Shown: in pieces, positions 2,931 to 63,630 of the stretch
Layout of the letters: every line of letters begins with the position of its first letter
Position numbering within the stretch: the first letter of the stretch is position 1
Position numbers and translations under genes: made by a program
From: an uncultured Clostridia bacterium
GTDB lineage: Bacteria > Bacillota > Clostridia > Christensenellales > Borkfalkiaceae
Direction: 5' to 3'
DNA length: 64,000 bases
Assembly (NCBI GenBank): GCA_944354125.1
Contig: CALVPT010000004.1
Span: 62,001 to 126,000, forward strand
The notes under the pieces: generated by a model
Databases searched by the model: none
The model's input: only the letters and a program-made list of their open reading frames with translations
Told to the model about the DNA's origin: nothing

Positions 2931-3076
2931 TATCTTTTGCTCATTTGATTGATATGTTGATAAATAAGCATTAATATGGTTTAATTTAATCAAAATTTGC
3001 TAAAATCAATCACAAAACAATCAACGAAAAAATATTGCCATACGCCGTGCAGGCGAAAAAATAAGAATAAAAAGAC
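2931..3076. other. AT-rich gene-free control region
   Basis: No gene seen between 2729 and 3154. This part is much more AT-rich than its flanks and is dotted with TGATTG/CAATCA motifs in both orientations (for example around 2945-2960 and 3004-3026). This layout is typical of regulator binding upstream of a sugar-hydrolase promoter, but the regulator is unknown. Confidence 0.35.
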
Positions 3077-3117
3077 AAAAAAAGGGCGGCGGTCAACCTC
3101 CTGGTTGACCGCCGCCC
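3077..3117 (-). terminator. Rho-independent terminator after galM
   Basis: Perfect 15-bp stem (3084-3098 with 3103-3117) with a TCCT loop, followed on the minus strand by seven Ts (3083-3077). It lies 37 nt past the galM stop. Confidence 0.92.
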
Positions 3118-3154
3118 GAAAATGACGCCGTCGATACTAGCCCTTACTTAAAAC

Positions 3155-4153: not shown

Positions 4154-4317
4154 ATGTGTATATATCTCCTTCGGGCAAGAGCAAAGGCATTACCCCTGCC
4201 CCTGAAAAAAAGTTTGAAACAAAATCATGCAGAGCCATTTTCTGCCCCGTGCAGGACGGGCACCTGCTCCGCGCCTAGGCGTCACAGCATGCAGCTGAGA
4301 GCCATAAGCCTGCAATA

Positions 4318-5799
4318 TCACGCCCTGAAGGGGTTTTCGCCGTCGTAGGGAAGATTTGCAGGGCGGTTATAGTCTATCTTCTCCGCGCCTAGATATCTGA
4401 ATACTTCGTAAATCTCCCTGCCGTAGCGGCCGAATGCCACCGCGCCGTGATGGGGGAAACCGTTTTCTATGAGCACGTGGCGGTAGAACCTGCCCATTTC
4501 GGGCACGGCAAACACGCCTATCGAGCCGAACGAGTGCGTTCTGACGGGCAGAACCTCGCCCTCAGCGACATACGAAAGCAGGCGGTTGTCCGCCGTGGAC
4601 TGCAGTCGGTAGAGGGTTATATTGCCAGGAGCTATGTCGCCCTCGAGCGTACCGAAAGTCACCTCTTCGGGGAGCGAGCGCGCCATTATCTTCTGGTTGC
4701 GCATTACGGGATTTATGAGCCTTTTCGAGCAGGTATTCCCGCAATGGAAGCCCATGAAGGTATCCGTCAGCTTATAGCCGAATTTGCCCTCTATCCCCTC
4801 TCTGTACAGTTCCTCGGGAAGGGTATTATTTATGTCCAGCAGGGTGACGCTTTCGCCCGACACGCAGGCGCCGATATATTCGGACAGGGCGCCGTATACG
4901 TCGACCTCGCAGGAGACGGGCAAGCCCATTCCCGTAAGGCGCGAATTTACATAGCAGGGCACGAAGCCGAACTGCGTCTGGAATGCCGGCCAGCATTTGC
5001 CTGCGATTGCCACATATTTTCTGCTGCCCTTGTGCGACGCCGCCCAGTCCAGAATGGTCAGCTCGTACCTGGCAAGCCTGGCGAGTATATCGGGACGGCT
5101 GTTGCCTGCGCCGAGCTCCTCCGTCATATTATTTACGACGGCGGAAATGCGGCTGTCGCCCTCATGCTTGTTGAAGCTCTCGAATAGGTCGAGCTCGGAA
5201 TTTTCCTCAATCTCGACGCCGAGATTATACAGCTGCTGTATGGGAGCGTTGCACGCAAAGAAGTTGGAAGGTCTGGGGCCGAACGTAATTATCTTGAGAT
5301 TTTTCAGTCCCACAATCGCCCTGGCTATGGGCACGAAACCGTGAATGAGCGATGCGCAGAAGTCGGCGTTGCCCACGGGATATTCGGGTATGTACGCCCT
5401 TACCCCTCTGAGCTTTAAATTATAGCTTGCATTGAGCATGCCGCAATATGCGTCGCCCCTGTCCGAGGAAAGCACGGAGATATTTTCCTCCGCCGCGGCA
5501 CAGAACATGACGGGACCGTCGAATTTTTCGGCGAGCATGGTCTCTGCAATTTCGGGGCCGAAGTTGCCCAGATATACGCACAGCGCATTGCACCCCGCCT
5601 TTTTTATATCGGCAAGCGCCGCCTGCATATGCAGCTCGCTTTCGACGATGCATACGGGACATTCATATATGTCCTCTCCTCCGAACTGACGGACATACGA
5701 CTGTACGAGCGCCTTTCTCCTGTTCACCGCAAGACTTTCGGGAAAGCAATCCCTTGAAACGGCAACTATGCCGATCCTGACTGCGGGTATGTTATACAT
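4318..5799 (-). CDS. L-fucose isomerase-related (fucose/arabinose isomerase family) protein
   Basis: A 493-residue cytoplasmic protein resembling the L-fucose/L-arabinose isomerase fold: an N-terminal half with alternating beta and alpha segments (YLGNFGPEIAETML), then a middle domain (AIAGKCWPAFQTQFGFVPC, with Cys and Trp) and a C-terminal barrel (GFHCGNTCSKRLINP). Start chosen at ATG 5799 (MYNIPAVRIG) because AAGGGGGT lies 8-12 nt upstream; the longer reading frame to 5961 begins with unlikely basic sequence. The divergent neighbour is an aldo/keto reductase. Small dyads (ttgcacgttagcgcgtgctcaa type, near 5810-5832, and TTTCGCATGAAA at 5861-5872) upstream may be operators. Exact sugar substrate is uncertain; many relatives are annotated only as fucose isomerase-like. 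Confidence 0.8.
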   Translation of the reverse strand: MYNIPAVRIGIVAVSRDCFPESLAVNRRKALVQSYVRQFGGEDIYECPVCIVESELHMQAALADIKKAGCNALCVYLGNFGPEIAETMLAEKFDGPVMFCAAAEENISVLSSDRGDAYCGMLNASYNLKLRGVRAYIPEYPVGNADFCASLIHGFVPIARAIVGLKNLKIITFGPRPSNFFACNAPIQQLYNLGVEIEENSELDLFESFNKHEGDSRISAVVNNMTEELGAGNSRPDILARLARYELTILDWAASHKGSRKYVAIAGKCWPAFQTQFGFVPCYVNSRLTGMGLPVSCEVDVYGALSEYIGACVSGESVTLLDINNTLPEELYREGIEGKFGYKLTDTFMGFHCGNTCSKRLINPVMRNQKIMARSLPEEVTFGTLEGDIAPGNITLYRLQSTADNRLLSYVAEGEVLPVRTHSFGSIGVFAVPEMGRFYRHVLIENGFPHHGAVAFGRYGREIYEVFRYLGAEKIDYNRPANLPYDGENPFRA

Positions 5800-5972
5800 A
5801 ATGTTTACCCCCTTGCACGTTAGCGCGTGCTCAATGTATTTCAATATGATGATATCATATTTCGCATGAAATGTTATCACACGCGAGCAACTTTTTTTAT
5901 ATTTTTTTCGCAAACTACTCAATTTGCAACGCAAAATGCGCAATATGCCCCTCCCCTGCACAGCGCCAACCG

Positions 5973-6001
5973 TTGACAGTCCGTCGGCATTGGGCTATAA
6001 T
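5973..6001 (+). promoter_or_regulatory. Consensus sigma-70 promoter for the aldo/keto reductase
   Basis: TTGACA (5973-5978), 17-nt spacer, TATAAT (5996-6001): a perfect housekeeping promoter only about 17 nt from the start codon, giving a very short leader. Confidence 0.88.
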
Positions 6002-6024
6002 AACGCATACGGAGCGACTGCAAC

Positions 6025-6981
6025 ATGAAATACACCCACATTGAAGGAATTGAAAAACCCGTATCGAGAATAGTCTTCGGCTGCTCGAACGACACCATGA
6101 ACGGCGGCGGAGACTTTTCGGAAGTGCTGGACGCCGCGCTTGAGGCAGGCATAAATACCTTTGACACGGCAAGGGTCTACGGCAAAAGCGAACGCTCGCT
6201 GGGAAGATGGCTCAAGTCCGGGCGCAGAGAAGACGTCATCGTCGAAACCAAGTGCTGTCACCCCTCCCTGCTGCGCCCTGACAGAGTGACCGCAAAGGAC
6301 ATAATGTCCGACTTCGACCGCTCTCTCGGGGAGCTGGGCACGGACTATGCCGACATACTGCTGTTGCACAGGGACAACGCAAAGGCGGATACGGGCAGCA
6401 TAATGGAGTGCCTAACCGCCCTGAAGGAGAGCGGCAGAATAAGGGCTTTCGGCGTATCCAACTGGACGCACGTGCGCATAGCCGAGGCAAACGCATATGC
6501 CGAGGCGCACGGCCTTGAAAAGATTGCGCTGTCCTCCCCCCATTTCGGACTTGCCGTTCAGCACGGAGACCCGTGGGGCGGCTGCGTGACCATAAGCGGA
6601 GACAATGCCGCGGCGAGAAAGTGGTACATTGAAAACGGCATGCCGATATTTGCATATTCGGGACTTGCAAGGGGACTTATGAGCGGCAGATACCGCGCCG
6701 ACGACAAAACGCTTGCCCGAAAGCTGGACGCCCCCACGAGGCGCGGATACCTGTATGAGGACAACCTGAGGCGGCTTGAGCGCGCCTTTGAACTTGCCGA
6801 AGCCAAGGGCTGCACGGTCGCCCAGCTGAGCGTTGCGTGGATGTTTGCGCAGGGTTTGGACGTATGCGCGATACTCTCACAGTCCTCCCCTAAACGCGTA
6901 TCGGAAAACGCCGCCGCGTGCGACGTTGTCATAACCGAAGAGGAGTCCGAATATCTGGACCTTAAAAGGGAAAAACTCTGA
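6025..6981 (+). CDS. Aldo/keto reductase
   Basis: A 318-residue cytoplasmic NAD(P)H-dependent oxidoreductase of the aldo/keto reductase superfamily. The catalytic tetrad is visible: Asp and Tyr in FDTARVYGKSE (about residues 47-52), Lys in VETKCC (about 76) and His in LLLHRD (about 115). The cofactor-binding end is suggested by ILSQSSPKRV near residue 288. It stands alone on the plus strand between two minus-strand genes. No clear AGGAGG precedes the ATG; GGAGCGACTGC is the best weak site. Substrate cannot be inferred, but the sugar-related left neighbours suggest a carbonyl compound from carbohydrate use. Confidence 0.92.
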   Translation: MKYTHIEGIEKPVSRIVFGCSNDTMNGGGDFSEVLDAALEAGINTFDTARVYGKSERSLGRWLKSGRREDVIVETKCCHPSLLRPDRVTAKDIMSDFDRSLGELGTDYADILLLHRDNAKADTGSIMECLTALKESGRIRAFGVSNWTHVRIAEANAYAEAHGLEKIALSSPHFGLAVQHGDPWGGCVTISGDNAAARKWYIENGMPIFAYSGLARGLMSGRYRADDKTLARKLDAPTRRGYLYEDNLRRLERAFELAEAKGCTVAQLSVAWMFAQGLDVCAILSQSSPKRVSENAAACDVVITEEESEYLDLKREKL

Positions 6982-7127
6982 CTTTCTGAAGTCTTAAAAT
7001 GCCGTTCGTCGGGGCATATTGCCGCACCAATTGAAATTTGCAGGGCATTGAACGCGCTACAAAATCAGCCATTGCTTGCCCTTCGGCGCACGGCATAAAA
7101 CATAAGCAAAACACAGATTAATAGCGA

Positions 7128-7164
7128 AAAAATGCGCCCCGAAAGCCGAAGGCTTTCGGGGCGC
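7128..7164 (-). terminator. Rho-independent terminator after lgt
   Basis: Perfect 14-bp stem (7134-7147 with 7151-7164), GAA loop, then a six-T run on the minus strand. It lies 19 nt past the lgt stop and also closes the space between convergent genes. Confidence 0.9.
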
Positions 7165-7182
7165 ACGCCTATATCTGAAAAT

Positions 7183-8070
7183 TTATTTTTCCTCGACGGG
7201 AGTCTTTTTGTCCTTGTCCTCCGCCTTTTCGCTATCCCTGACGGGCGGCTGAAGTTCGGGGTGTTTCATCTTGCCCTGAAGCACATACTTGAAGAGGAAT
7301 ATGAAACCTATGCCGAGCACGACCATTACTATCGACCAGAACTGCGAAGGCGTAAGCCCTGCGACGAACGAGCCGCGGTAGTCGTCCCTTACGAACTCTA
7401 TGAGGAAACGCCATACGCCGTAGGAGATGAGATAAACGCTGAAGTTATGGTTGAACTTGAACTTATAGTAGAGCACTATCATTATGACCGACAGCAATAC
7501 GAGGAAGATGCACTCGAAGAGCTGAGTGGGCACTACCTTTATATAGCCTGCGTCGGGCGTGTGCATCATTATGCCGTACCATGCGTCCGTTTCGGCGCCG
7601 TGGCAGCAGCCTGCAAACGTGCAACCTAATCTTCCGAAAGCGTGCGCAATCGTAATAGCAGGTGCGACAAAGGGTATGGCATCGCACAGTCCCGCATTCA
7701 TATGGTTGGAAAGAAGCTTGCTCTTTGCCCTGGGCGCAATGACGTATACGTATACATTCCACGCTATGAGGAAACTGCTTACGCCGCCTATAAGACCGCC
7801 CTGGAAGGTCATCGCCTCGCCGAGCTTGTAGCCCTGCGAAGGGTCCTCGATGTAGTCGTAGAGCGCCTGGAATACCATTGCCATGAACACGCCGAATGCG
7901 GTTGCAAATATGCCGAACAACAGAAGCTTATCTATCGCCTCTTCGTTGAAGTTCTTCTTGGTCATCGTTACGTACAGGAAGACGAAACAGCCTATTATGC
8001 CCGCCGCCATGCAAAGGCCGTAGGGATATACGCTGAGCTTTCCTATACTGAATAAAGGTCCGTCTATCAT
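7183..8070 (-). CDS. lgt: Prolipoprotein diacylglyceryl transferase family protein
   Basis: Membrane enzyme that moves a diacylglyceryl group from phosphatidylglycerol to the lipobox Cys of pre-lipoproteins. The 295 residues hold about seven hydrophobic segments. The family core is HAFGRLGCTFAGCC (about residues 143-156), equivalent to the usual GRxGNFxNxE loop, but with Cys residues replacing the Asn/Glu positions, as in some clostridial relatives; FLIEFVRDDYRG near 238 matches the conserved Arg-rich segment. The last 25 residues are a charged, Lys/Glu-rich tail. It has its own consensus promoter and terminator. The divergent core motif leaves some doubt about identical chemistry. Confidence 0.85.
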   Translation of the reverse strand: MIDGPLFSIGKLSVYPYGLCMAAGIIGCFVFLYVTMTKKNFNEEAIDKLLLFGIFATAFGVFMAMVFQALYDYIEDPSQGYKLGEAMTFQGGLIGGVSSFLIAWNVYVYVIAPRAKSKLLSNHMNAGLCDAIPFVAPAITIAHAFGRLGCTFAGCCHGAETDAWYGIMMHTPDAGYIKVVPTQLFECIFLVLLSVIMIVLYYKFKFNHNFSVYLISYGVWRFLIEFVRDDYRGSFVAGLTPSQFWSIVMVVLGIGFIFLFKYVLQGKMKHPELQPPVRDSEKAEDKDKKTPVEEK

Positions 8071-8115
8071 AAACTATGCATCCTCGCGGCAAAACTTATT
8101 CCGCCGCATATGCGC

Positions 8116-8144
8116 ATTATATCATTATTTTCAGCATATGTCAA
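8116..8144 (-). promoter_or_regulatory. Consensus promoter for lgt
   Basis: Minus strand TTGACA (8144-8139), 17-nt spacer, TATAAT (8121-8116), about 46 nt upstream of the lgt start. It lies between the leuA stop and lgt, so lgt is transcribed separately from leuA. Confidence 0.85.
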
Positions 8145-8174
8145 TAAACTGACGCACATTCAAAGGTTGCGCTT

Positions 8175-9836
8175 TTATTTGCCTGCAAGCAGGTTGTTGA
8201 CCGCTGAGGCGAGCGCCTTGTACGAGCTCTTTATTATGTCGTCGTCTATTCCCGCGCCCCAGAACGTCGCACCGTCGCGCTCGACGCCGACATACGAGAT
8301 TGCCTTGGAAGATGAGCCGACGGTCAGCGCGTGCTGTTCGTAGCCTATGAGGACATAGTCAGTGCCGAGATAGAACTTGATTGCGTTGGACACGGCGTCC
8401 AGTCTGCCGTTACCGTTTGCTTCCACCACGTCCCTCTTGCCCTTTTTGAGGAATGTAACCGCCGCATCTATGCCGTCGCCCTGACGGAAGTGACATTCGG
8501 GTATGTCGAAATATGCCCTCGAGTTGACATAGTTGTCTATGAACACCTCGTACACCTCGGAGGGCTTGAGCTCCTTATGCGCCCTGTCGGACACCGCCTT
8601 GGTCTTATAGCCCATATCCTCCTTCATTCTTGCAGGCATCTCTATGCCGTAGTTGGACATCATTATATAGCCTACGCCGCCCTTGCCGGACTGCGAATTG
8701 ATGCGTATGACGTCCGACTCGTACTCCCTGCCGACGTCGACGGGGTCGATGGGGATATACGGCACGTTCCATACGGTGAGATTGTGCTTTTTGCGGTATG
8801 CCATTCCCTTGGCGATTGCGTCCTGATGCGAACCCGAGAACGCCGCGAAAACAAGCTCGCCGGCATACGGCTGACGGGGACTGACGGGCATTGAGGTGAA
8901 CTGCGTGTAGAGCGCGGCAACCTTGGGCATATCCGAAAAGTCCAGTCTGGGACTTACGCCCTGCGAATACATATTGCCTGCAAGCGTGACTATGTCGGCA
9001 TTGCCCGTGCGCTCGCCGTTGCCGAAGAGCGTACCCTCTATCCTGTCGGCGCCTGCCAGAAGTCCGAATTCAGCCGCGGCTACGCCCGTGCCCCTGTCGT
9101 TGTGGGGATGAAGCGATATGACGACGCTATCCCTGTACTTTACGTGTTTGCAGATATATTCCACCTGCTGCGCATATACGTGCGGCATTGCGTTTTCGAC
9201 CGTCGCAGGCAGGTTGATTATTGCCTTTCTGTCCGCCGTAGGCTGCCATATGTCGAGCACGGCGTTGACCACCTCCAGCGCATACTCGGGTTCCGTCCCC
9301 GTGAACGATTCGGGGGAATATTCGAAGCGGTAGTCCGCCCCCTCCTCCTCGGCGAGCTTTTTCAATAGCTCTGCGCCGTCGGTCGCAATCTTCTTTATCT
9401 CTTGCTTGTTCTTGCCGAACACCTGCTCCCTCTGGGCAACGGAGGTCGAATTGTAGACGTGCACTATGACGTTCTTTGCGCCCTTTACAGCCGCAAAGGT
9501 CTTCTTTATTATGTTCTCCCTCGCCTGGGTCAGCACCTGAATGGTGACGTCGTCGGGAATGAGATTGCCGTCTATGAGCGTCCTTAAAAAGTTATATTCC
9601 GTATCGCTTGCCGCAGGGAAACCCACCTCTATTTCCTTGAAACCTATGTCTACGAGCAGTTTGAAAAACTGCACCTTGGTCTCGAGCGACATAGGCTCGA
9701 TTAAGCTCTGGTTGCCGTCCCTGAGGTCTACCGAGCACCATACGGGCGCGCAGCTTACGGCGTCTTTTTCCGCCCAGTCCATGCACCTTTCGGGGGGAAG
9801 AAAATACTGTTTGGCATATTTTGTGTTGTTAAGCAT
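8175..9836 (-). CDS. leuA: 2-isopropylmalate synthase
   Basis: Condenses acetyl-CoA with 2-oxoisovalerate, the first committed step of leucine synthesis. The 553-residue length matches the long (leuA2-like) form. The N-terminal HMGL-type barrel shows the metal and substrate motif DLRDGNQSLIEP near residues 37-48 and metal ligands in HPHNDRGTG near 243. The C-terminal regulatory (leucine-sensing) domain runs from about residue 420 to the end. The gene stands alone behind a T-box leader, so it should be expressed when uncharged tRNA-Leu accumulates. No other leucine genes are in the window. Confidence 0.95.
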   Translation of the reverse strand: MLNNTKYAKQYFLPPERCMDWAEKDAVSCAPVWCSVDLRDGNQSLIEPMSLETKVQFFKLLVDIGFKEIEVGFPAASDTEYNFLRTLIDGNLIPDDVTIQVLTQARENIIKKTFAAVKGAKNVIVHVYNSTSVAQREQVFGKNKQEIKKIATDGAELLKKLAEEEGADYRFEYSPESFTGTEPEYALEVVNAVLDIWQPTADRKAIINLPATVENAMPHVYAQQVEYICKHVKYRDSVVISLHPHNDRGTGVAAAEFGLLAGADRIEGTLFGNGERTGNADIVTLAGNMYSQGVSPRLDFSDMPKVAALYTQFTSMPVSPRQPYAGELVFAAFSGSHQDAIAKGMAYRKKHNLTVWNVPYIPIDPVDVGREYESDVIRINSQSGKGGVGYIMMSNYGIEMPARMKEDMGYKTKAVSDRAHKELKPSEVYEVFIDNYVNSRAYFDIPECHFRQGDGIDAAVTFLKKGKRDVVEANGNGRLDAVSNAIKFYLGTDYVLIGYEQHALTVGSSSKAISYVGVERDGATFWGAGIDDDIIKSSYKALASAVNNLLAGK

Positions 9837-52776: not shown

Positions 52777-52866
52777 GCAGAGGTGGCAGAGTGGTCGAAT
52801 GCGCACGACTCGAAATCGTGTTACGTAGGAATACGTACGGAGGTTCGAATCCTCTCCTCTGCGCCA
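52777..52866 (+). tRNA. tRNA-Ser, anticodon CGA
   Basis: Complete cloverleaf with a long variable arm. Acceptor GCAGAGG pairs with CCTCTGC, T-arm GGTTCGAATCC, anticodon stem CACGA/TCGTG with loop CTCGAAA giving CGA (codon UCG), and encoded CCA at 52864-52866. A weak promoter TTGATT/TATAAA lies upstream (52735-52761). It marks the border to the mobile region. Confidence 0.97.
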
Positions 52867-53450: not shown

Positions 53451-53506
53451 TATATTTCAATTTATTTGTTTGTGTGGAAATACCTTATGATTAAAATTGA
53501 AGTATA

Positions 53507-53645
53507 GCCCACTATACTTCGCAAGCGAAGTCGTGGGCTCTGCGAGGCTTTTATTCCACGCACGAGAAAAGGGTTTCAGGGGAAGGCTTCCCCTGACGAG
53601 GCGAGCGTTTACGCTCGGCAAGTGGCTTGCCACTTGCGTACCTCG
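53507..53645. repeat. Cluster of hairpins upstream of the interrupted recombinase
   Basis: Four perfect or near-perfect hairpins in 140 bp: GCCCAC..ACTTCGC-AA-GCGAAGT..GTGGGC (53507-53538), CAGGGGAAG/CTTCCCCTG (53577-53595), CGAGCGT-TT-ACGCTCG (53602-53617), GCAAGTGG/CCACTTGC (53618-53637). The last two are enclosed by CGAGG/CCTCG (53597-53601 with 53641-53645), giving a branched shape. No ORF between 53451 and 53741. Confidence 0.7.
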
Positions 53646-53741: not shown

Positions 53742-53959
53742 ATGAAAGCCGTAATCTACGCCCGTTATTCAAGCGACAACCAAAGAGAAGAGAGCATTGA
53801 CGGTCAGCTTCGTGAATGTATGGAGTACGCCAAGTTCAACGGCATAGACGTCGTGAACAGTTACATAGACCGTGCGCTCTCCGCAAAGACTGACAACCGC
53901 CCTAACTTCCAGCGTATGATTAAGGACAGTTATAAGGGCTTATTTGACGTTGTCCTCGT
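53742..53959 (+). pseudogene. Serine recombinase, 5' fragment (interrupted in codon 73)
   Basis: AVIYARYSSDNQREESIDGQ carries the nucleophile Ser (residue 10) and the resolvase fold start. The reading frame runs into element DNA after GLFDVVLV and stops 10 nt later (53969). Joined in frame to 63003, it continues WKLDRFARNRYDS, the conserved Asp-Arg-x-x-Arg motif. The two halves are thus one gene split by a 9-kb insertion. AGGAGC lies 11 nt before ATG. Confidence 0.93.
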
Positions 53960-53979
53960 TGAGACATAAATTTATGGAC
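53958..53979. other. attL junction of the 9-kb element
   Basis: Core GT at 53958-53959 inside the host GTG (Val) codon, then the inner half-site TGAGACATAAATTTATGGAC (53960-53979). Its reverse complement matches the half-site at the other end in 16 of 20 positions. Confidence 0.85.
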
Positions 53980-54047
53980 ACTCTCAAAATAAAGGTATCA
54001 GAGACAAAAAGTAAGCGTATGAGTTCGGTCAACCCATACGCTTTTTG

Positions 54048-55673
54048 TTATTTATCGGAATTATTGAGTTTATGCCGTAAAACGGAAGCTATATCGATTT
54101 TGTACACGATATCTATTTCCCGTTCTTTGCCTGTGATTTTCGGCAAGCCACCGACGATGATACGGTCTATCAGCTCATAGCACATCTCACGTGTAAGTTC
54201 CGGCGCTTCGAGATACTTCTTTATGTTCCGTATAAAGTCATCGGCACTCTGTATCGTATTTTCCGTTTCGGTCAGTTTTGCTTCCAACGCCTCGATTTCA
54301 GCTTCAAGTTTCTTTTGCTCATCGGAATATTTTTGGATAAAGTTCAGGCAGATATCTTCGGGCATTTTACCTTTTAGCCTGTCTTCATAGGCAAGCTGCA
54401 TAAGGCAGGATAGTTCTTCAATACGTTTCAGTTTTCCTTGTAATTCCTTTTTTACGGCTTTTATAGATTTTTCCTGCACTTCCGCATTGTGCCGGATAAA
54501 CTCTTCACGGATAGCCTTTTCGTCAAGCACGATCCGCTGCGCCATGTCCCGTATATCGTCAAGGATTATTTTTTCGAGAGTCTTTGCCGCTATGTGATGG
54601 GAAAAGCATATCGTCTTACCGAAACGCATATGGTCGCCGCAGTTAAACGCATATTTATTGTTTCCGACGCTGTTCAACTTCATTTTGCAACCGCAGTCGG
54701 CGCAATAAAGAAATCCCGATAAAGGATGCGTATAGCCCGTAGCGGTTTTCCTGCCCTGCGCGACAGACTTTTCACGTTCGCGTACTCTATCCCAAAGCTC
54801 CTGCGAGATGATAGGCGGATGCGTATTATAGACGACAACCCATTCGCTTTGGTCTTTCTTAAATCTCTTGTGGTTCTTATACGATACGGACGTGGACATT
54901 AACTGCGGCATATGCCCGATATATACTATGTTTTTCAGCATAGAGGCAATCGTGATTTGCCCCCAAAGTCTGCGGTCACCCGGCTTGCCCTTATGGCCGA
55001 GTTTTTCAAAGGCGTATTGTCCGGGGCAAGGGACATTTTCTTCGTTTAATATCTCGGATATCCTCCTCGGACTGATTCCAGACGCGTACATTTCGAATAT
55101 CCTGCGGACTATCGGCGCTGTTTCTTCGTCGATGATGAACGTCCGTTTTTCGTCCGTGCCTTTGATATAGCCGTAAGTGGCTTTCTTGCCGTGGAACACG
55201 CCTTCTTTGGCTTTCGCTTTCCATACGGCGCGAATTTTTTTGCTGGTATTCGCGGCATGCCACTCGTTAAACACGTTCATAATGGGCATCATTTCCATAG
55301 CCCCGCTGTCACGATTTTCCGTGTCCACATTATCTTGTATGGCTATGAAACGTATCCCGAACGCGGGGAATACATAATCGACGTATTGACCGACCTCGAT
55401 ATAGTTCCTGCCGAAACGGGACAGGTCTTTGACGATGATGGTATTGATTACGCCCGTCTTTGCGTCGTCCAAAAGCCGTTGCACTTCGGGGCGTTGAAAA
55501 GTCGTGCCCGACACGCCGTCGTCTATGTATTCGTCGTGAATTTCAAAACCATGCTCCTCGGCATATTTGCGTAAGATAGTACGTTGGTTGTCGATAGATA
55601 CCGATTCGCCCTGACGTTCGTCCTCTTGGGAAAGTCTGTAATATAATCCCGCGATATAGTGTTTCTGTTTCAT
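54048..55673 (-). CDS. Large serine recombinase (TndX/TnpX-like)
   Basis: 541 residues. N-terminal resolvase domain with nucleophile Ser15 in LYYRLSQEDE and VKDLSRFGRNYIEVG (Asp-Arg-Arg motif, near 86-100); recombinase domain (GVFHGKKATYGYIKG); zinc ribbon with FLYCADCGCKM and FNCGDH; coiled-coil region near 405-490; and a DUF4368-type end. It should carry out integration and excision of the element. The start is ATG 55673, 4 nt after GAGGTGA; the ATG at 55688 lies before the ribosome site. Its 3' end is about 90 nt from attL, as usual for integrase genes. Confidence 0.95.
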   Translation of the reverse strand: MKQKHYIAGLYYRLSQEDERQGESVSIDNQRTILRKYAEEHGFEIHDEYIDDGVSGTTFQRPEVQRLLDDAKTGVINTIIVKDLSRFGRNYIEVGQYVDYVFPAFGIRFIAIQDNVDTENRDSGAMEMMPIMNVFNEWHAANTSKKIRAVWKAKAKEGVFHGKKATYGYIKGTDEKRTFIIDEETAPIVRRIFEMYASGISPRRISEILNEENVPCPGQYAFEKLGHKGKPGDRRLWGQITIASMLKNIVYIGHMPQLMSTSVSYKNHKRFKKDQSEWVVVYNTHPPIISQELWDRVREREKSVAQGRKTATGYTHPLSGFLYCADCGCKMKLNSVGNNKYAFNCGDHMRFGKTICFSHHIAAKTLEKIILDDIRDMAQRIVLDEKAIREEFIRHNAEVQEKSIKAVKKELQGKLKRIEELSCLMQLAYEDRLKGKMPEDICLNFIQKYSDEQKKLEAEIEALEAKLTETENTIQSADDFIRNIKKYLEAPELTREMCYELIDRIIVGGLPKITGKEREIDIVYKIDIASVLRHKLNNSDK

Positions 55674-55677
55674 GGGT

Positions 55678-55872
55678 TCACCTCGCATTGTTAGTAGTGC
55701 GCTGTACGGCGATGGTTTTCATCGTTTTCTCAAAATCCTTGCCGCCGCGGAAATACCTGCGGACATAATACGTCTGCCTATCCACGGTTTTTCTTTTACT
55801 GATAGACGGAGCGAAGATATAACAGTTCTCGTAATCTTCGCCGCTGTAAAATGCTTTTTGTACTGCGTTCAT
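55678..55872 (-). CDS. Small protein next to the recombinase (64 aa)
   Basis: Basic 64-residue protein (MNAVQKAFYSGEDYENCYIF ... TNNAR) with an excellent ribosome site (AGGAGGTAAAAA-ATG). Its stop lies in the ribosome site of the recombinase gene, so the two are coupled. YENCYIF and Arg/Lys-rich middle (SISKRKTVDRQTYYVRRYFRGG) could bind DNA. Candidate recombination directionality factor or structural partner, but I recognise no family. Confidence 0.75.
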   Translation of the reverse strand: MNAVQKAFYSGEDYENCYIFAPSISKRKTVDRQTYYVRRYFRGGKDFEKTMKTIAVQRTTNNAR

Positions 55873-55901
55873 TTTTTACCTCCTGAAATTTGATTTGTTC
55901 T

Positions 55902-56048
55902 GTCTTTCGACGGAGAAAAAACAAACGGAAACGCAAGGTCTTTCCCTTATCCGTTCTGCTCGTTGCTTTCCGTCAAGGGTTGCCGAAGGCAATGCACCTT
56001 GCCCTTGACGGGAAGGGCGTTTCCGTTTACACTCTCCGTCCGAAAGAC
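55902..56048. repeat. Large nested palindrome after rep (candidate single-strand origin)
   Basis: Outer arms GTCTTTCG (55902-55909) and CGAAAGAC (56041-56048), next ACGGAG/CTCCGT, then AAACGGAAACGC (55923-55934) with GCGTTTCCGTTT (56017-56028), then CCGTCAAGGG (55970-55979) with CCCTTGACGG (56002-56011), and an inner TTGCC-GAA-GGCAA. It starts 9 nt past the rep stop. A 147-nt folded structure in this position resembles single-strand origins of rolling-circle plasmids. Confidence 0.6.
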
Positions 56049-56056
56049 AAATATTT

Positions 56057-56950
56057 TTAGTTTGCCTTCGGCATTTTCTCAATGACTTCCTTGCTGACTT
56101 TACCCATGACCTCGCCGTCCACCATGCAGGTGAAGTCATCCGCAAGAACGGCTTTTCTGTCATCTATCCCGCAAGGACAGAGAATGTCCTCGTTCATCAC
56201 GTCGGAAACGAAGTAAGTGGGCAGGTCGCCGCCGTAGATCAGACGTTCGCCCGACTTTTCTATGTATTTCATCAGATAGCCGAGCGAATGCTGCACTTCC
56301 ATCGGCGAGCCGAGCGCTTGGAAATCGTTGCGCCCGTACCGTTCCAAAAAATAGGTGTTCTGATGCGCCGTTTGCATTCGGTGGACTTTGGTGCTGTAAT
56401 CTTTGGTTTCCACGATCTCTCCGACCATTCCGCCCGGCGGGATGTAGAAGATACCGTGGAAATGCAATCTGCCTGTTTCACCGCCGCGCTCCCATACGCC
56501 GACATGCTTCCAGCCTTTGCGGGCGACGAGGTGTTTGAATGTGTTACGGAGCGACTTACGAAAACTCTCTTCGGTATGCAGCGTGTCCGAGAACGTAAAC
56601 GTGCAAAAGAAATTCCAATCCCTTTGCAGATTTACTTTTTTGGATAAGCGTACTTTTCGGCGAATTTTGTTAGTAGTTTTACGCTCGTTGTTTCGCTCAA
56701 CGTATTCTTTTCGCTGCTCCTTATCCGGGATAGTCTCTTCCATAGCTTTCCGCATATAGGCTTTGCGTTCTTTGCGGGGCAACTTTTGGCTCTCCTTATA
56801 AGCGGCTTCAAACTGCTCTTTCTTTTCGACCTCCTCAACGGATAGCGGGCGGGCTGCCCGTCGTCGCTTGTGTCCCTGCGGAAAATTTTCTTTCGGGGTG
56901 GCGATGTAATGGCTTCCGTCAAATGAGATTTTGGCTGCTCTGTACGGCAT
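56057..56950 (-). CDS. HUH rolling-circle replication initiator (Rep)
   Basis: 297 residues. Motif 1 WNFFCTFTFSD near 112-122, HUH motif RLHFHG with His163/His165, and a Tyr motif HSLGYLMKYIEKS (Tyr225/Tyr229). This arrangement is that of replication-associated proteins of small rolling-circle plasmids and phages. It nicks an origin and covalently binds DNA. A lysine/arginine-rich N-terminal region (about 28-110) may contact DNA. Start ATG 56950, 9 nt after AGGAGG. Suggests the excised circle can replicate. Confidence 0.85.
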   Translation of the reverse strand: MPYRAAKISFDGSHYIATPKENFPQGHKRRRAARPLSVEEVEKKEQFEAAYKESQKLPRKERKAYMRKAMEETIPDKEQRKEYVERNNERKTTNKIRRKVRLSKKVNLQRDWNFFCTFTFSDTLHTEESFRKSLRNTFKHLVARKGWKHVGVWERGGETGRLHFHGIFYIPPGGMVGEIVETKDYSTKVHRMQTAHQNTYFLERYGRNDFQALGSPMEVQHSLGYLMKYIEKSGERLIYGGDLPTYFVSDVMNEDILCPCGIDDRKAVLADDFTCMVDGEVMGKVSKEVIEKMPKAN

Positions 56951-57474
56951 TGTTTTGTTCCTCCTTCGATTTTTTTGCATAGCATAAACCTTAAACTCGC
57001 AAGGTTTTTGCGACTTCAAGAATTTTCTTTGAGAAAAATTCTACAAGCCAAACCGGAAGGTTTCTTTCCGGTTTGAAAAAATTTTAGCACCTAAATACGA
57101 CAGTTTTTGACGTGTTATAAAAACTTTTTTCACAAGCGTACAAAAAATCAGTGCCAAAACCTGTCCTTAATTCCGAGAGATTTTTACTCTATCACGGGAA
57201 TTTTCTGATTGGAAGGAACAAAAACGGGCTGTATTCGGAGCAATTTCGGGCATTTGGGTAGAGTAAAGTGTTATATCAGGGCATAAAAGGTATTTTCAGA
57301 CGACAGGATAACAAACTCGTTGGCAGAATGTTAGCAAGCCTGTCTATAACGTTTCCATAGTTTGTAAATAGCAAATACAAAATGAGGTGTTGTTTACCCA
57401 AACTGAATACATAGAAAAAGGCAGGCGTCGTACAACGTCTGCCTTCAATGAAAGATTAAGTTAAGCGGCATATA
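56951..57474. other. Gene-free region upstream of rep, candidate double-strand origin
   Basis: No credible ORF in 524 bp. AT-rich with two hairpins near rep: an imperfect AGAATTTTC/GAAAAATTCT (about 57019-57042) and AAACCGGAA (57050-57058) with TTCCGGTTT (57066-57074). A Rep nick site is expected near such a stem-loop, but none can be assigned by reading. Confidence 0.5.
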
Positions 57475-58146
57475 TCAGTACGCGCCGTAAAGCGAATAAT
57501 ATCTCTGACGGATGCTTGCTTTTCTGCTGTTGATTTTCCCTCTTCCGATGCCGAGTTCGGCGCAGACTTCGGATTGTACCATGCCGTTCATATAGCAGTT
57601 CAAAATGGCAAGCTCTAATGCGGAAAGCTGTAACGCGTCTACAAGCTCATCGTATTTCGTGTAGTCTGTCTGCTCATGTTCAAAGCAGTTCACGGGATCC
57701 ATAGGCAACGCCTTATAATCCGTAAAGTCTATGGATTCAACGACAGTCCCGCGCCTGTCCGGTCTGTTACGTAGAAGATTGATGAAGTGGTCTACTTCAC
57801 GATAGCAGGCAAGTTTTATGGTGATCTCTTTTCCCTTGCGATCTTTGCCGTAAATTTCATTGGCTGTATGACCGACGAATTGATAGAGAAAGCAGATTGC
57901 GGTCTGTGCTACGTCATAACCGTCCGATACGATATAGTCTATCTCACTCATATGGTGCAGGTCTTTGATGAGTCCGATATACAGTTTGTCTGCTACTTTC
58001 ATATCGAACTTTTTGACGGTACGGAGCGCCTGCAATGCTATCATTTCGCCCATGAGTTTTACGTTATCGGCAGAGATAGGTTCTGCGAACAAATCGCCTT
58101 CGTTGCGATACTTTCCGTTTGAGAACTTTGTTACCAACATTTCCAT
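57475..58146 (-). CDS. HTH protein of the integrative element, sigma region 4-like
   Basis: 223 residues. The C-terminal part (LSALELAILNCYMNGMVQSE ... RYYSLYGAY, about 175-223) resembles an HTH like sigma-70 region 4. The N-terminal and middle parts (residues 1-150) have no motif I know. ATG 58146 follows GAGGTG by 5 nt; the longer frame is rejected. A regulator of element genes is likely. Similar proteins are found on clostridial conjugative and integrative elements. Confidence 0.75.
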   Translation of the reverse strand: MEMLVTKFSNGKYRNEGDLFAEPISADNVKLMGEMIALQALRTVKKFDMKVADKLYIGLIKDLHHMSEIDYIVSDGYDVAQTAICFLYQFVGHTANEIYGKDRKGKEITIKLACYREVDHFINLLRNRPDRRGTVVESIDFTDYKALPMDPVNCFEHEQTDYTKYDELVDALQLSALELAILNCYMNGMVQSEVCAELGIGRGKINSRKASIRQRYYSLYGAY

Positions 58147-58975
58147 TTTAACACCTCTGTTTTTCTCGCTTCCGCGAGTATTTGTATTTGCCTTTTTCGG
58201 GCAACAGGCGGAGGTGCATAGGACGGTAAACGGAAAGCATCTTCTCAATCGGTCTGCGGAAGTCAACGGGGCAAAGCCAAAATCGTTGCGTTATACGCGT
58301 GCAAAACGGATTGTAAGCGAAAAAAGAGCCGAGCAAGGAAACTCCTTACTCAGCTCAAAAGTTGTTTCTATGGGTGTTTTCTGCGACGATTTTGCGGCCG
58401 TTGACGTCCGCGAAGGCCTATGCTACCATAGCCGACCGAAAAAGCAAATTCAAGAGGTACATGGAACGGGAATAAAGCCAATGAAAGAAAGCATTGCGCG
58501 GCGGAAAAAGCGGCAGCCGATCCCCAAGCGGGTTAGCGGGGACGGCTCCGCGCCGCCGCGCTTTCGGTTTGGTTTTCCGTGTTGTTCTTGTTTGCTTTTT
58601 CGTGGCGTGTGCTTGGCTGCGGCGAGCGAAGCGAGCCGCACTTGTCTATGCCAAGCACACGCCACGGTGCCAAATAAATTTTTCATCCTGATTTTCCTGA
58701 TTTTTGCTCTGTTTTTGCATGTCAAAACCGCCCCTTGTGAGAGCGGCTTTGCGGATGGATAAAAGTTTGAGCAAATTTATTTTGAGAGCGTTTCCAAAAC
58801 TAACTGCGATAAATAGGTGTGAGCTAATCGCAGCGGTGGAAGGGCGGTTTGTTGTTCCTCCGCTTCCACCTTTTTGATAAGTTATCATAGGATGCATTTC
58901 ATCTGTATGTTTTTGAAGTATATCATACAGAACCAATAATTTGATTTTCTGTTCAGCGTGTCTCGACATAGCATT
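58147..58975. other. 829-bp gene-free zone with a 17-bp inverted repeat
   Basis: No convincing gene. The key feature is CGTGGCGTGTGCTTGGC (58601-58617) with GCCAAGCACACGCCACG (58650-58666), a perfect 17-bp stem, holding an inner TGCGGC/GCCGCA (58618-58623 with 58635-58640). Other smaller dyads occur at about 58513-58547 and 58825-58870. GC content is far higher here than in the cargo block next to it. Candidate origin of transfer, second replication site, or structured RNA. Confidence 0.6.
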
Positions 58976-61090
58976 CTATTTTTTATTGATAATATCAATG
59001 GGCGTTTTTTTCACCAACTTAAAAACGGGTAATATCGCAGATATTGCGACTGCACCAAAACAAATTCCCAACATTGAAATAATGGACAAAAATCCAACAA
59101 TAAATAGCGGTATAAAATAAATTGTATTAAGTATCCCGCAAATGATACTGACAGCTATCAATGAAAACGAAAAATCAATTAAAGCGATTATACCGCTTTC
59201 CGTCATACAAATACATAAAATATCCTTTTTTCTTGCGCCTAACGCGCGTAAAATACCAAGTTCTTTTTTACGGCATTCAAAACTTGTATTCAAAAAATTC
59301 ATCATAAGTAAGGCCGCAAATACTGCAAATACAGTTGCTCCTATTTGAAACGGTAAAAGAAGATAGTCTCTAAAAAAATACAAAGGAGACATTAAACCAC
59401 TATAAGGCGACTGTATTTTAACTGATTTTTCCCGACCGCTTTCCTCAGTATAATTCAACTGATTGAAAAGTTTTAAGTCTGCATTCTCATTTCCACTCAA
59501 TTTTAGAACTAAACGATTTATATCGACTGAATATCCATGTAAACTTTCACTAAAACCTTTTTTTAAGTACATAAAACTAATAACCGAATTAACAGATGTA
59601 CCTACAATATCAGCATTATAAGGATCATTGGTTTTGAGGGTTTCCATACTAATATCATCGTATTGTTTATAATATTCCCTGTTCAGTTCGGTGGAAAAAA
59701 CGCCGCAGATTGTCAAGTTTCCTCGCCCTAATTTTTTTCCAATCAGTTCATCGGGCGTCTGGATGCGTATAGTTTCTCCGTTTTCTGTTTTGTAGCCAAA
59801 TCGTATAAACATATCGGCATGCATATCCGTGATCGCTACCTCGTCATAAGTTTGCGGAAGTCGACAGATATCCTTGTCTTTAAATCGTTTATCGGGTTCC
59901 AATTTAGCATCTTCATCGCCCGTTACTGAATCTATTTCGATACAGGTACTTGATGAAAGAGCAAGTCGGCAATATACGGAATTTGAGTCCTCCCTTTTGG
60001 TTTCTCCCAAATTCAACTCCGACCAATCCGCAGTAGCAACGGGAGAAATAACTGTCATCGGTTCTTTTCCGTTATTAAATTCTTTGATTATATTAAGCTG
60101 CTTTTCGGCAAACGGCAAATAATCAAGCCCATTATGACCATAATATTTATTATCTGCTTCAACAATAATCATTTGAAAATCGTTGTCACGCAGTATGGTC
60201 AGTTCGGTTCGATACTCGTTCACCATGCTTGCCGTAAATGAAAATCCGAATAACGTAAATGCCACCACTGCTAACAGTATGGATATAGCCAAACGAACGG
60301 GGTTAGAACTTAATCCATGTACCCCTATTAAAAGAGCACGTTTAAACGGCAGTTTACTCTTTATAAAATGACATTCATCAGTCGTTTTTTCATTCGGTAC
60401 TTCATTCAAATAAGAATCATTTATTATTTTTCCATCCGACAATTCAACAATTCTGTCGCCGTACCGCAATGCACTCTCATAATCATGGGAAACTACTATA
60501 ACCAACCTTTTTTCCGAAAGTTTTTTCAAAAGCTCATAAAGTTCGGCACTTGTTTTGCTGTCCAAAGCGCCGGTAGGTTCATCGGCCAAAATTATTTCCG
60601 GATTTTTTATTAGAGCACGAGCAATGGCAACACGTTGTTTCTGCCCGCCTGAAAGTTCATTAATTTTACGATTAAACAACGTGTTGCCTCGGTTATCTGT
60701 CAAATCAACTAAACGTAATACCATATCGACATCTTCACGAGTATATTTTCTGCCTTGCAATTCTAAAGCGAGTTTAATATTATCTTCCACAGAGTAAGTA
60801 TCAATTAAATTATACTCTTGAAACACAAAACCGATACAAGTATTTCTATAATTATCAAAATCCATTGCAGAAAAATTTTTGCTGGATTTTCCTTTGACAA
60901 TGATTTCTCCGTCCGTAGGTTGATCTACTCCTCCCAGTAAATTTAAAAAAGTAGACTTTCCAGAACCGCTTTTACCCAAGATGAATACAAAGCCGGTTTG
61001 ACAGAAGTTTATTGTCAAGTTATCCAATGCCGTTGTTTTTACGCCTTTGCTTGTTTCATAAATTTTAGTTAAATTCTTGACAGATAACAT
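58976..61090 (-). CDS. MacB-like ABC transporter (ATPase fused to FtsX-type permease)
   Basis: 704 residues. N-terminal ATPase (1-225): Walker [11 protein letters not shown]-loop FQEYNL, signature [15 protein letters not shown], Walker [14 protein letters not shown]-loop VVSHD. One membrane helix near 265-285, a large outside domain (about 290-590) and three helices with FtsX core near 600-700 ([14 protein letters not shown]). These act as mechanotransducers or exporters for peptides or lipoproteins. Very AT-rich. It begins 10 nt after the hydrolase gene, so the pair probably works together. Confidence 0.92.
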
Positions 61091-61100
61091 TTTTATTACC

Positions 61101-62451
61101 CTAATCTACAAGATTATCATCTTTCCATTCCAATAAAGAATGACCGATCCTTAAAGTTTTTGTGTTATTATCTAATTGATCGGCAAAGGTAACCAATCGC
61201 ATTCTATTCCCGTTATTATAGTATTCTCTACTGAATGCTACTGATGAAGCAAACCAATTTTCTTCTACTTCGATATTTTTACTCTTATATGCTTCAATAC
61301 TTTCCTCTGTAACATCTTTTAATCCTTTCCACTCTTTTGCGTCGTCATAAAAACACATTTTTTTGTTGTACCGAATATTTATGTCTTCAGCCGTATTGTT
61401 TTTTACTTTAATTGTCCATGTACTACCTTCTTTATCTACAATTGAAAGACCGAGGTATGCAGAATTAGAATAATCTGTATTCACATATGTATAATGGCTA
61501 CCATAAATATCAGCAGGCCAACATCCACCTTTCTCGCCGATTGCGTCGGTCATGTCTATGCCAGCATATTTATAAGCAGCGTACATCATCTCAGAACAAT
61601 ACCAATCCTCGCTGTTTATATCTGTATTTAATCGGTCATATGCTCCAGCATGCCAAAGATTATATTCCTTCCCTAATTGTTTATAATGGAAATATTTTAC
61701 ATCTTCTCTTTGCGCCGAAGTAACGCCTCTTACTCCCAAAATTTTAACTTGGAAGTTGACCATACGATTGTCATCTAAAAATCCGAACTGTGTTCCGCCC
61801 TTGACACAATCAATTGTTTGTATATATTCACCCTTATCGCTCTTGTGATCTAAATCATAAATACATGCGACGTGACCGATATTGTTTAGAATGGTCTGCG
61901 TCTCAAGTAAAATATCCCCTTCTTTGATAGCACCATAATAAAACATGGAGCATACGAAATCTCGTTGAAACACACTCGCTGGAGTTATCTCATCGTCATA
62001 TCCTCTATTTGCGAAATCTCTGTAAATCTCCCTATTTTTACCAGCATTACTATTGTATTTCAATATGTAATCGGCATCGGCAGATGATGAACGGGGTGCT
62101 ATGGTCAAATTTGTAGGATTCCCCGCATTTTCTATTACCGCTGCAGTGTAATCCTGTATAGTTGTCTCATAATTATAATAATTTGCACTGAAATCCTCAA
62201 TCTCACACATTTCATGGCCAGTAGCCGTTACTTTTTCTGATGCCTGATCATAATATGATTGAAAAATATCTTCATATGATAAAATTTCAATGGGCGATTT
62301 TTCAATCTGTTTTTCAGCAGCCGTTTCTGCTCTTGCTGAAATTGATATCTCCATAAACGAAACAAACACTCATAAACATACTAAGGAATATCAATAAACT
62401 AATAATAATTGTTGTACCTTTTAACTTTTTTGAAGTCTTAAAATAATTCAT
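61101..62451 (-). pseudogene. Secreted permuted NlpC/P60 (YiiX/YebB-like) cysteine hydrolase, +1 frameshift after the signal peptide
   Basis: The first frame (ATG 62451, after AAGGAGAG) gives MNYFKTSKKLKG and a long hydrophobic stretch, then reads off at 62314. Shifting by one base near 62370 joins it to the 421-residue mature part beginning SFMEISISARA|ETAAEK, a signal-peptidase site. The mature part has GDILLETQ and IGHVACIYD (His166 in the shifted-frame numbering) then WYCSEMMYAAY (Cys258): the His-before-Cys order of permuted papain-like hydrolases. A beta-rich C-terminal domain follows. The shift may be a base error, a programmed site or gene decay; I therefore list it as broken. Confidence 0.75.
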
Positions 62452-62521
62452 CGTTTTCTCTCCTTTTTTGTTAATAACATAATATTGATATATAATTCTA
62501 CGATTTTTTAAAAAACAAAAA

Positions 62522-62556
62522 AGCATAAAAGTTGTCCTTATGACATCTTTTATGCT
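62522..62556 (-). terminator. Attenuator hairpin in the cargo leader
   Basis: AGCATAAAAG (62522-62531) pairs with CTTTTATGCT (62547-62556), with a run of Ts (TTTTTTGTTTTTT) on the minus strand. It lies before the hydrolase gene and within the leader transcript, so it must be overcome for cargo expression. Confidence 0.8.
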
Positions 62557-62576
62557 TATACGCAACATGTGTACAT
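62556..62576 (-). CDS. Leader peptide MYTCCV
   Basis: Six codons (ATG TAC ACA TGT TGC GTA, stop TAA) with a strong AGGAGG site about 10 nt upstream. The stop codon touches the attenuator stem. A stalled ribosome would therefore block the terminator, as in inducible antibiotic-resistance and amino-acid operons. Tandem Cys codons hint that charging of tRNA-Cys or a drug could be the signal (inference). Confidence 0.65.
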   Translation of the reverse strand: MYTCCV

Positions 62577-62670
62577 TGGAAAACACCTCCTTTTCCGTTA
62601 AACCATCACTTTAACATTTTTTCTTTATTTCCATTCCTATTATTCAACCTAACCTGTAATCTATATTTAT

Positions 62671-62699
62671 ATATTATCACATATTTATCTCATTGTCAA
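62671..62699 (-). promoter_or_regulatory. Promoter of the cargo operon
   Basis: Minus strand TTGACA (62699-62694), 17-nt spacer, TAATAT (62676-62671). Predicted start near 62664, giving a leader of about 210 nt. Confidence 0.8.
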
Positions 62700-62980
62700 T
62701 ACTAAACAATAAAATATTTCCGCGATTTATCACAAATCGATTATTCATATAAAACACAATCCGAATCTTTGGACATCCCGAAGACATAAGGACTCGTAAA
62801 TTGCTCGTGAATACATTGTTATCGACAGATTTTCCAAGTCTTATGCTGAAAACATAGAAAAAAGCAGATTGAGGAACCCGCTCGCTCTGCTTCTTCTTTC
62901 CCCCTCGGTTCGTCCTTTTTCTCGCACTCTACGGTTATGCTTTACCGTCTTACGTTAATAATAGAGAGGCCTACAAAAAT

Positions 62981-63002
62981 GTCCATAAAAATATGTGACA
63001 GT
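62981..63002. other. attR junction of the 9-kb element
   Basis: Half-site GTCCATAAAAATATGTGACA (62981-63000) followed by core GT (63001-63002) and host sequence GTGGAAATTGG. Joined to attL it gives a near-palindromic attP centred on GT and an uninterrupted attB. Confidence 0.85.
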
Positions 63003-63630
63003 GTGGAAATTGGACCGCTTTGCGCGCAACCGTTACGATAGCGCACACTACAAAACCATACTCAAACGCAACGGCGTGAGGGTACTTTCAGCAAAGGAAA
63101 CCATTTCCGAGGGCGCGGAGGGTATCCTGCTCGAATCTATGTTGGAGGGCTATGCAGAGTACTACTCCATAGAACTCGCCGAAAAAGTTAAGCGCGGCTT
63201 GACGGAGAACGCATTGAAAGCCAAGGCAAACGGCGGAACCTGCACGTTCGGCTATACGGTTGACAGCGACAGGCACTACCAGATTGACCCGCCCGCCGCG
63301 CTCATCGTGCGCGAGGTGTTTCAGCTTTACGCCGACGGCAAGACAATGAAAGAGATTAAGGACATTTTGAACGCAAAAGGTTTGACCAACTCGCGTGGGA
63401 AAGAATTTACCTTTAACACGATACAGCGTATGCTTTCAAACCGGAAGTATATAGGCGAATATCATTTCGGCGAAGTAACAATTCCCGACTCTATGCCTGC
63501 AATCGTGGACAAGGAGCTGTTCGAGAAAGTGCAGCAAATGCTTGTCAAGAACAAGAAAGCCCCTTCGCGCCACAAAGCAGAGGACGACTACCTGCTCACC
63601 ACAAATGTAATTTACGCAAATGGACAATAA
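63003..63630 (+). pseudogene. Serine recombinase, 3' fragment
   Basis: In frame with the 5' fragment at 53742: WKLDRFARNRYDSAHYKTIL has the catalytic Arg residues, then the recombinase domain (GTCTFGYTVDSDRHYQIDPP, IKDILNAKGLTNSRGKEFTF). It diverges from family sequence after EDDYLLTT, where relatives read KLFCGxCG, and stops after seven unrelated codons. So the zinc-ribbon and later part is missing. The whole rejoined ORF would be 281 residues. Confidence 0.9.
63604..63625. other. Possible second junction in the recombinase gene
   Basis: Family similarity ends at AA (63604-63605), within the expected Lys codon. The next 20 nt, TGTAATTTACGCAAATGGAC, end in ATGGAC at the same distance from the core as in attL (53960-53979). 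This could be the left end of another element of the same kind. The other end is outside the window. Confidence 0.4.

Follow-up and report, generated by a model that had tools for sequence, protein, structure and literature searches.

Our analysis of the window, the whole 64,000-nt stretch of DNA from an uncultured Clostridia bacterium, suggests that an integrated element within it copies itself as single-stranded circles, and this element may be a relative or hitchhiker of filamentous phages. With a probability of roughly 0.6, we read it as a mobile element of the single-strand-DNA type whose replication backbone is common to the filamentous phages of Clostridia, and which replicates as a rolling circle from a nick in a hairpin (hp2), with a palindrome as a start site. 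On this reading, hp2 would be the nick origin, and the palindrome would act as the origin of the complementary strand or as a single-strand promoter, in the service of the recombination genes. Sequence comparison shows the conserved DNA sites, their layout, the family link, and the insertion, and the features concerned are as follows.

53742..53959, plus strand: outer serine-recombinase gene, 5' part, the target (Resolvase domain, 61 bits; rejoined frame)
53960..63002, no strand: complete integrated element (9,043 bp, counting the GT core dinucleotide once)
54048..55688, minus strand: large serine recombinase of the element (PF00239, PF07508, PF13408, PF14287: Resolvase, Recombinase, zinc-ribbon, DUF4368)
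55678..55872, minus strand: 64-aa ORF between palindrome and recombinase (tblastn layout of relatives)
55900..56048, minus strand: palindrome (A), candidate complementary-strand origin or single-strand promoter (fold z, covariation; model R1, 129.2 bits)
56057..56950, minus strand: HUH Rep, REP_ORF2-G2P family (PF23343; invariant HFH and YxxKY; model pLDDT 88.6)
56951..57474, no strand: gene-free stretch upstream of rep, about 0.5 kb, no ORF of note
57475..58146, minus strand: sigma-like protein gene (PHROG sigma, E 0.0038; Foldseek, ECF sigma factors)
58493..58582, plus strand: hp1 hairpin with CAAGCGGGTTAGCG loop (-27.7 kcal/mol, z -2.4; aligned with phage and element copies)
58604..58663, plus strand: hp2, candidate nick origin, a hairpin whose ACTTGTCTATG bulge is unpaired (model R2, 67.7 bits; common to filamentous-phage prophages)
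58976..61090, minus strand: cargo, ABC transporter ATPase-FtsX permease (PF00005, PF02687)
61101..62369, minus strand: cargo, secreted amidase-like protein (weak C92 match; PF05708 at 20.4 bits, under the cut-off of 27)
63003..63630, plus strand: outer serine-recombinase gene, 3' part (Recombinase and Resolvase domains; rejoined frame)

An element nested in a recombinase gene

When the flanks (53742-53959 and 63003 onward) are rejoined, they give an uninterrupted, in-frame serine-recombinase reading of 281 aa, and the element is therefore nested in another recombinase gene. The comparison shows a precise insertion by a serine recombinase at the GT core, and the right end of the element is identical, at the same base, in another genome (locus L056). 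The linkage of Rep to a large serine recombinase, as proposed in the initial annotation, is confirmed by the four Pfam domains of the gene at 54048-55688 (minus strand). The 64-aa ORF next to it accompanies this recombinase class only, as judged from the tblastn layout of relatives, and a Pfam search gave no match for it. A run of short inverted repeats lies at 53500-53640, just upstream of the interrupted outer gene, and a tRNA gene (52777-52863) about 0.9 kb upstream of that gene could be where the outer element is attached.

Locus L056 is nearly identical to the first 5.5 kb of the element (window 62992-57443, which covers the cargo together with hp2/hp1 and the greater part of the sigma-like gene), with an identity of 1.0 in all but a few 50-nt steps, whereas its rep is about 85% alike and its palindrome has unalike letters but the same fold. 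The front part has thus been joined to a different rep-palindrome-recombinase part.

The Rep protein and its family

The rep ORF encodes 297 aa from an ATG start (MPYRAAK...) and matches PF23343, REP_ORF2-G2P, at 41.5 bits (cut-off 27.8), as do 31/31 family members. Both the HUH motif H163-F-H165 and Y225-x-x-K-Y229, with the putative catalytic tyrosines, are invariant in the 31 aligned relatives, so that the clear HUH motif first noticed in this protein stands and neither motif is degenerate on alignment. The predicted structure matches HUH-like folds, but weakly. Foldseek against the PDB places viral Rep domains among the top rows, but at E ≥ 0.015, while predicted viral structures yielded microvirus replication proteins at E of about 1e-5. 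VIA-align gave Z of about 6.7-7 to Reps and 8.3 to Helitron, yet ribosomal S6 also reached 7-8, in a list from whose rows inovirus Reps are absent; these scores do not separate a Helitron, S6, or Rep fold.

The Rep sequence has no relative in the PDB. In viral contigs, the Rep pattern by sequence alone gave 0 confirmed out of 8 stretches, and the 31-row Rep alignment found five loci, two close and three distant, with two of the distant ones on 4.4-kb contigs. Three places in the window's own genome carry this Rep family. A second element in that genome (L151, G000:C10, 5821-10475), adjoining TIR-like ORFs, contains a tyrosine integrase, a sigma-like gene, a palindrome-like site (25.7 bits), ORF310 (HTH), a type-B Rep, and hp2. 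The same genome also holds a dead relative (L152, G000:C6, ~8149-9657) with a decayed Rep, a divergent palindrome, and sigma-like and recombinase remnants, in which hp2 lies on the opposite strand upstream of the decayed Rep.

A palindrome that keeps its fold

The palindrome starts within 10 nt of the rep stop and is built from the helices CTTTC/GAAAG, AAACG/CGTTT, and CAAGGG/CCCTTG with an inner hairpin. Its fold reaches -44.1 kcal/mol with DNA parameters versus -20.9 ± 3.0 for shuffled sequences (z -7.7; 0/200 as low), and the opposite strand folds with z -8.0. The multi-level palindrome described earlier, 9 nt after Rep, is thereby upheld in both nesting and position.

TAAACG occurs no more than 60 nt from the stop in 65 of the 87 Rep matches (first loci), and 64 of these also have the 3' arm, the one exception being cut by a contig end; 60 copies are distinct. 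We first aligned 46 of the 60, leaving out extra-stem forms and the aberrant L045, and then 31 that are more closely alignable (30 distinct). In these 31 rows, 88.0% of cells pair, 23 of 44 pairs have changes on both sides, and double-change cells number 92 versus 33.4 ± 4.5 in shuffles, although part of this excess is expected from a structure drawn from the same rows. The covariation score was 0.212, versus at most 0.117 for slid partners. By this sequence evidence the palindrome is a selected site: compensatory changes preserve the fold in 60 distinct copies that follow related Reps. A conserved folded single strand adjoining a rolling-circle Rep, the mark of an sso, is thus present by covariation, R1 model, and position.

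The palindrome is not confined to Rep genes. Across 297 genomes of the order, the R1 model found 74 places at E ≤ 1e-3, counted on one strand each, and 44 of them follow a Rep match on its 3' side at a distance of 60 nt or less; among places of at least 60 bits the fraction is 42/49, and of the other seven strong ones two are at contig ends (G188:C3, G237:C28) and the remainder are real copies with no adjacent Rep. Beside type-B Reps, the palindrome lies 1.5 kb away and is divergent. Copies lacking Rep have a serine recombinase, a sigma-like gene with a recombinase behind it, or a tyrosine integrase immediately downstream, so the palindrome would serve integration genes as well.

Its two boxes are invariant and their spacing is rigid. 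On the 5' arm, TAAACG and CAAGG are 15-17 nt apart in 59/60 measured palindromes (16 nt in 52), and the complementary boxes on the 3' arm are 17-56 nt apart; 22 of 23 palindromes with no adjacent Rep, a set that includes L192-L194 and L232 as grouped with the Rep-less copies, are spaced at 15-16 nt. By eye, the two-box motif matches the sigma-A consensus poorly. As a double-strand promoter it does not recur elsewhere, and we rejected it as a general promoter because 65 of its 69 matches are the palindromes themselves. The sigma-like protein of the element is probably ECF-like by fold, its best structural matches in Foldseek being ECF sigma factors (top rows, best E 1.7e-3; model pLDDT 74), and some of its 18 relatives show weak region-4/HTH Pfam matches.

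A second conserved hairpin beyond rep

The hp2/hp1 module (58493-58672) lies beyond the sigma-like gene, on the opposite strand from rep, and was first noticed behind palindrome-less Reps. The hp2 region (58595-58672) folds at -31.7 kcal/mol (z -7.0) and has the layout GGCGTGTGCTTG...CACTTGT...CAAGCACACGCC. Its model, R2, was built on 30 copies including that of the window, which match by construction; in 30/30 of these aligned copies CTTGT is unpaired beside the outer stem, and some weaker copies have CTCGT. The stem letters are near invariant across phage prophages, Rep elements, Rep-less islands, and gene-less repeats, while the Reps differ by more than half. Within the order, hp2 is present in 92/297 genomes.

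We scored 88 Reps for hp2 position; the counts given here have L082 and L107 moved out of the palindrome class because the palindrome model has no match there. For palindrome-type Reps with at least 2 kb of upstream sequence, hp2 lies on the opposite strand 0.4-3.1 kb upstream in 40 of 47, L009 being counted only via the hairpin of a neighboring type-B element, and was not found for the other 7. Behind the other Reps it lies on the same strand, 107-170 nt downstream in 18 of 22, two of the four misses ending within 270 nt of a contig end. The hp2 strand is always opposite to that of the palindrome. On a 64-row Rep tree, a single change accounts for the two arrangements (SH-aLRT 94; 15.8 in shuffles), against four or more changes of recombinase class, which argues that Rep and hairpins travel together and the recombinase is exchanged. 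A strict coevolution of hp2 with Rep is unsupported: the bulge letters require 16 changes for seven classes on the Rep tree, a count that we do not weigh as evidence.

A search for element ends by TTTATGGACA yielded 13 ends in 18 loci, three unrelated matches having been left out. Three of the 13 (L006, L009, and L020) are inside an hp2, and in L020 the flanks rejoin to an intact hp2. These three loci (L020 at 400-6750) hold elements of the window's recombinase class inserted in another element's hp2.

The gene-free region noted before rep is real (56951-57474, about 0.5 kb), and its near part is conserved in the three closest aligned relatives, L007, L056, and L009. Its hairpin at 57049-57075 is small (z -3.3) and weaker than the palindrome or hp2. 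The initial proposal that sso and dso flank rep therefore holds insofar as conserved hairpins lie on both sides, but the partner of the palindrome is hp2/hp1 at 58493-58672 and not the gene-free gap. Given the intact Rep motifs, the covarying palindrome, and the second conserved hairpin beyond rep, the arrangement is best read as a pair of origins, one on each side of rep.

Both sites together in islands and gene-less repeats

The hairpin hp2 and the palindrome are retained together in Rep-less restriction-modification islands and in gene-less repeats of about 390 bp. Two genomes (L143 and L144) carry nearly the same Rep-less island with restriction-modification-type genes, a TIR-like gene, hp2, palindrome, sigma, and serine recombinase, the cargo being named a type I restriction-modification set by eye from sequence. 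The gene-less units, with differing flanks, occur in 19/39 genomes of one family, some of these matches being partial, and 11 of 30 loci tried were aligned. In L198-L206, L217, and L227, such repeats consist of hp2, hp1, palindrome, and the right end GCTAGTTTCAAAAGT.AGTGACTAA followed by a T-run. The gene-less repeats suggested an IS91/REP-like transposon with palindrome and hp2 as termini; we dropped this reading because the pair does not enclose the cargo and recombinase of the Rep elements, whose ends are formed by recombinase sites.

A link to filamentous phages

The window hairpin hp2 is also found behind the Rep of filamentous-phage prophages, some with Zot/pI. In L229, a type-B Rep stands beside a Zot (PF05707 at 21.6 bits, cut-off 20.3; PHROG Zot, E 1.2e-8) that has matches in 37/297 genomes; a family Rep encoded on the same strand lies no more than 3 kb from 9 of the 14 Zot places at E ≤ 1e-90, and at least six of those (G327, G152, G155, G288, G182, and G246), a lower bound as some hp2 rows are not listed, have hp2 behind Rep. 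The element and a candidate helper phage thus have a cis site in common, in the window and behind Zot-linked Reps. No Zot was detectable in the other type-B loci, though phage-type neighbors are common to them, and queries with PF05707 and the L229 Zot found no Zot/pI in the window's genome, element included. As to the plasmid-like life cycle first suggested for the element, the system is akin to filamentous-phage prophages and not to ordinary plasmids, and 0 of 72,556 plasmid records match the Rep, as is likewise the case for the type-B Rep. A possible helper neighbors the palindrome-type element of locus L025 (G182, 612-8409): Zot-like genes and others of phage type, carried on the opposite strand, sit about 3 kb away.

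Proposed mechanism and alternatives

From these features we infer excision, nicking, priming, and packaging. The recombinase would excise a circle, on whose plus strand (as the window is oriented) Rep would nick hp2 in its unpaired C-T-T-G-T and so drive rolling-circle synthesis. Once that strand is displaced, the palindrome would fold on it, and host RNA polymerase, perhaps aided by the ECF-like sigma factor of the element, would start there and prime the complementary strand. Because a nick on the plus strand at hp2 makes the displaced strand the template of the genes 3' of the palindrome, the same start may also give early recombinase expression for reintegration. This geometry is, by analogy, that of reviewed ssDNA promoters, and the palindrome would prime the second strand as well, as Frpo does. 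The identity of the nicked hairpin is one that we infer, as CTTG is present in the paired CCCTTG of the palindrome too. Of the excised circle with a rolling-circle route put forward initially, the intact Rep motifs and conserved hairpins speak for the route, but the joined-end (attP) pattern of a circle had 0 exact matches in viral_contigs.

Other readings assign the two sites differently. Known nick sites contain CTTG, and the palindrome, with its invariant and similar CCCTTG and its position directly 3' of Rep in most cases, might itself be the Rep nick origin (dso), leaving hp2 as a complementary-strand or packaging site. We had preferred this at first on account of CCCTTG and now think it unlikely, since there are copies with no upstream Rep at all and, near type-B Reps, divergent ones 1.5 kb off; moreover, CCCTTG is paired while the CTTGT of hp2 sits in an unpaired bulge, and it is hp2 that insertions strike. 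We also think it quite improbable that the palindrome works at the RNA level, as a leader or attenuator for the recombinase/sigma operon. In the cases read, a ribosome-binding site does follow within about 30 nt, as does a start codon, belonging to a small ORF or to a sigma or recombinase gene, but the walked helices (46 rows) hold 24 G-T versus 47 A-C cells, the latter derived largely from one column, and this lack of a G-U excess gives no sign of RNA and points to DNA. Rfam had no match to the palindrome in the window at E ≤ 1 and none in eight relatives (gathering scores) or four gene-less-repeat loci (E ≤ 0.5), and the gene-less repeats retain the palindrome. To a bidirectional terminator or a chance palindrome we give almost no credence; the site does lie between two genes and folds on both strands, but near-invariant unpaired letters, rigid spacing, the absence of a T-run, and 0/200 shuffles folding as well all speak against it.

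A possible, though doubtful, alternative is that hp2/hp1 is (also) the filamentous-phage packaging signal and that the element is a phage satellite extruded in helper inovirus virions. The near invariance of the hp2 stem across element kinds despite divergent Reps is what one would expect if a common factor recognized the site, filamentous virions accommodate any DNA length, and in G182 such an element lies 3 kb from Zot-like phage genes (L025). Satellites of ssDNA phages are known, namely RS1 and the plasmid pDolos, as summarized in PMC11389934. The window's genome, however, has no Zot, no coat gene was noticed in the element, and replication alone would also explain the hp2 conservation. Our results also lead us to speculate, tentatively, on a guild of ssDNA parasites on Clostridia filamentous phages, in which Rep-bearing cargo elements, Rep-less restriction-modification islands, and the ~390-bp gene-less units would all rely on a single nick/packaging hairpin and a single palindrome, acting as single-strand promoter and origin, and would be copied and extruded by helper inoviruses. 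The ECF-like sigma of the element would switch on the recombinase from the entering single strand, and members would sometimes integrate into the helper's origin hairpin.

If the favored reading, an integrated element with a phage-like rolling-circle backbone, is true, defense and transporter genes of gut Clostridia move on single-stranded circles that borrow filamentous-phage replication and perhaps virions, a route hardly studied in Gram-positive bacteria. The two covariance-supported DNA sites are directly testable for nicking, priming, and packaging, the hairpins provide a means to detect such elements without any gene, and the insertions into hp2 are an example of elements integrating into one another's replication origins.

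Comparison with known systems

Neither these hairpins nor elements of this sort in Clostridia are reported in the titles and abstract openings that a literature search retrieved. The inoviruses of Gram-positive bacteria, for example Enterocloster, as outlined in PMC10061712 and PMC6813254, come close: their Zot-linked Reps belong to the Rep family found here and have the same hp2 behind them, and some inoviruses are described as using serine recombinases (PMC6813254). Unlike them, the window element has no Zot/pI found and no coat gene noticed, and it carries ABC-transporter cargo and a palindrome of its own. RS1 and pDolos, in the outline of PMC11389934, are likewise dependent relatives of filamentous phages with replication genes and no morphogenesis genes, but they belong to other hosts, whereas we see an integrative family of serine-recombinase type that includes cargo islands as well as gene-less forms, and for which helper dependence is only putative.

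ICEBs1 with its sso1 and other rolling-circle ICEs or AICEs, as presented in PMC4595007, resemble the element in being integrated, in autonomous rolling-circle replication (proposed here), and in a structured single-strand origin; the element differs in having no conjugation genes, a G2P-type Rep, and a palindrome with no Rfam relative. Frpo and the ssDNA promoters of conjugative plasmids, as summarized in PMC11541004 and PMC8708921, are also folded single strands upstream of establishment genes on the would-be template strand, but the palindrome has no good -35/-10 for the main sigma factor and the element brings an ECF-like sigma. Streptococcal IMEs are described as integrating at nicked oriT sites (PMC7563843), and relatives of the window element similarly integrate at a short site inside another element's hp2, here with a serine recombinase and a phage-type origin in place of an ICE oriT. 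Rolling-circle integrative elements and inovirus relatives or satellites are thus kinds already known, and the element is a variant of these.
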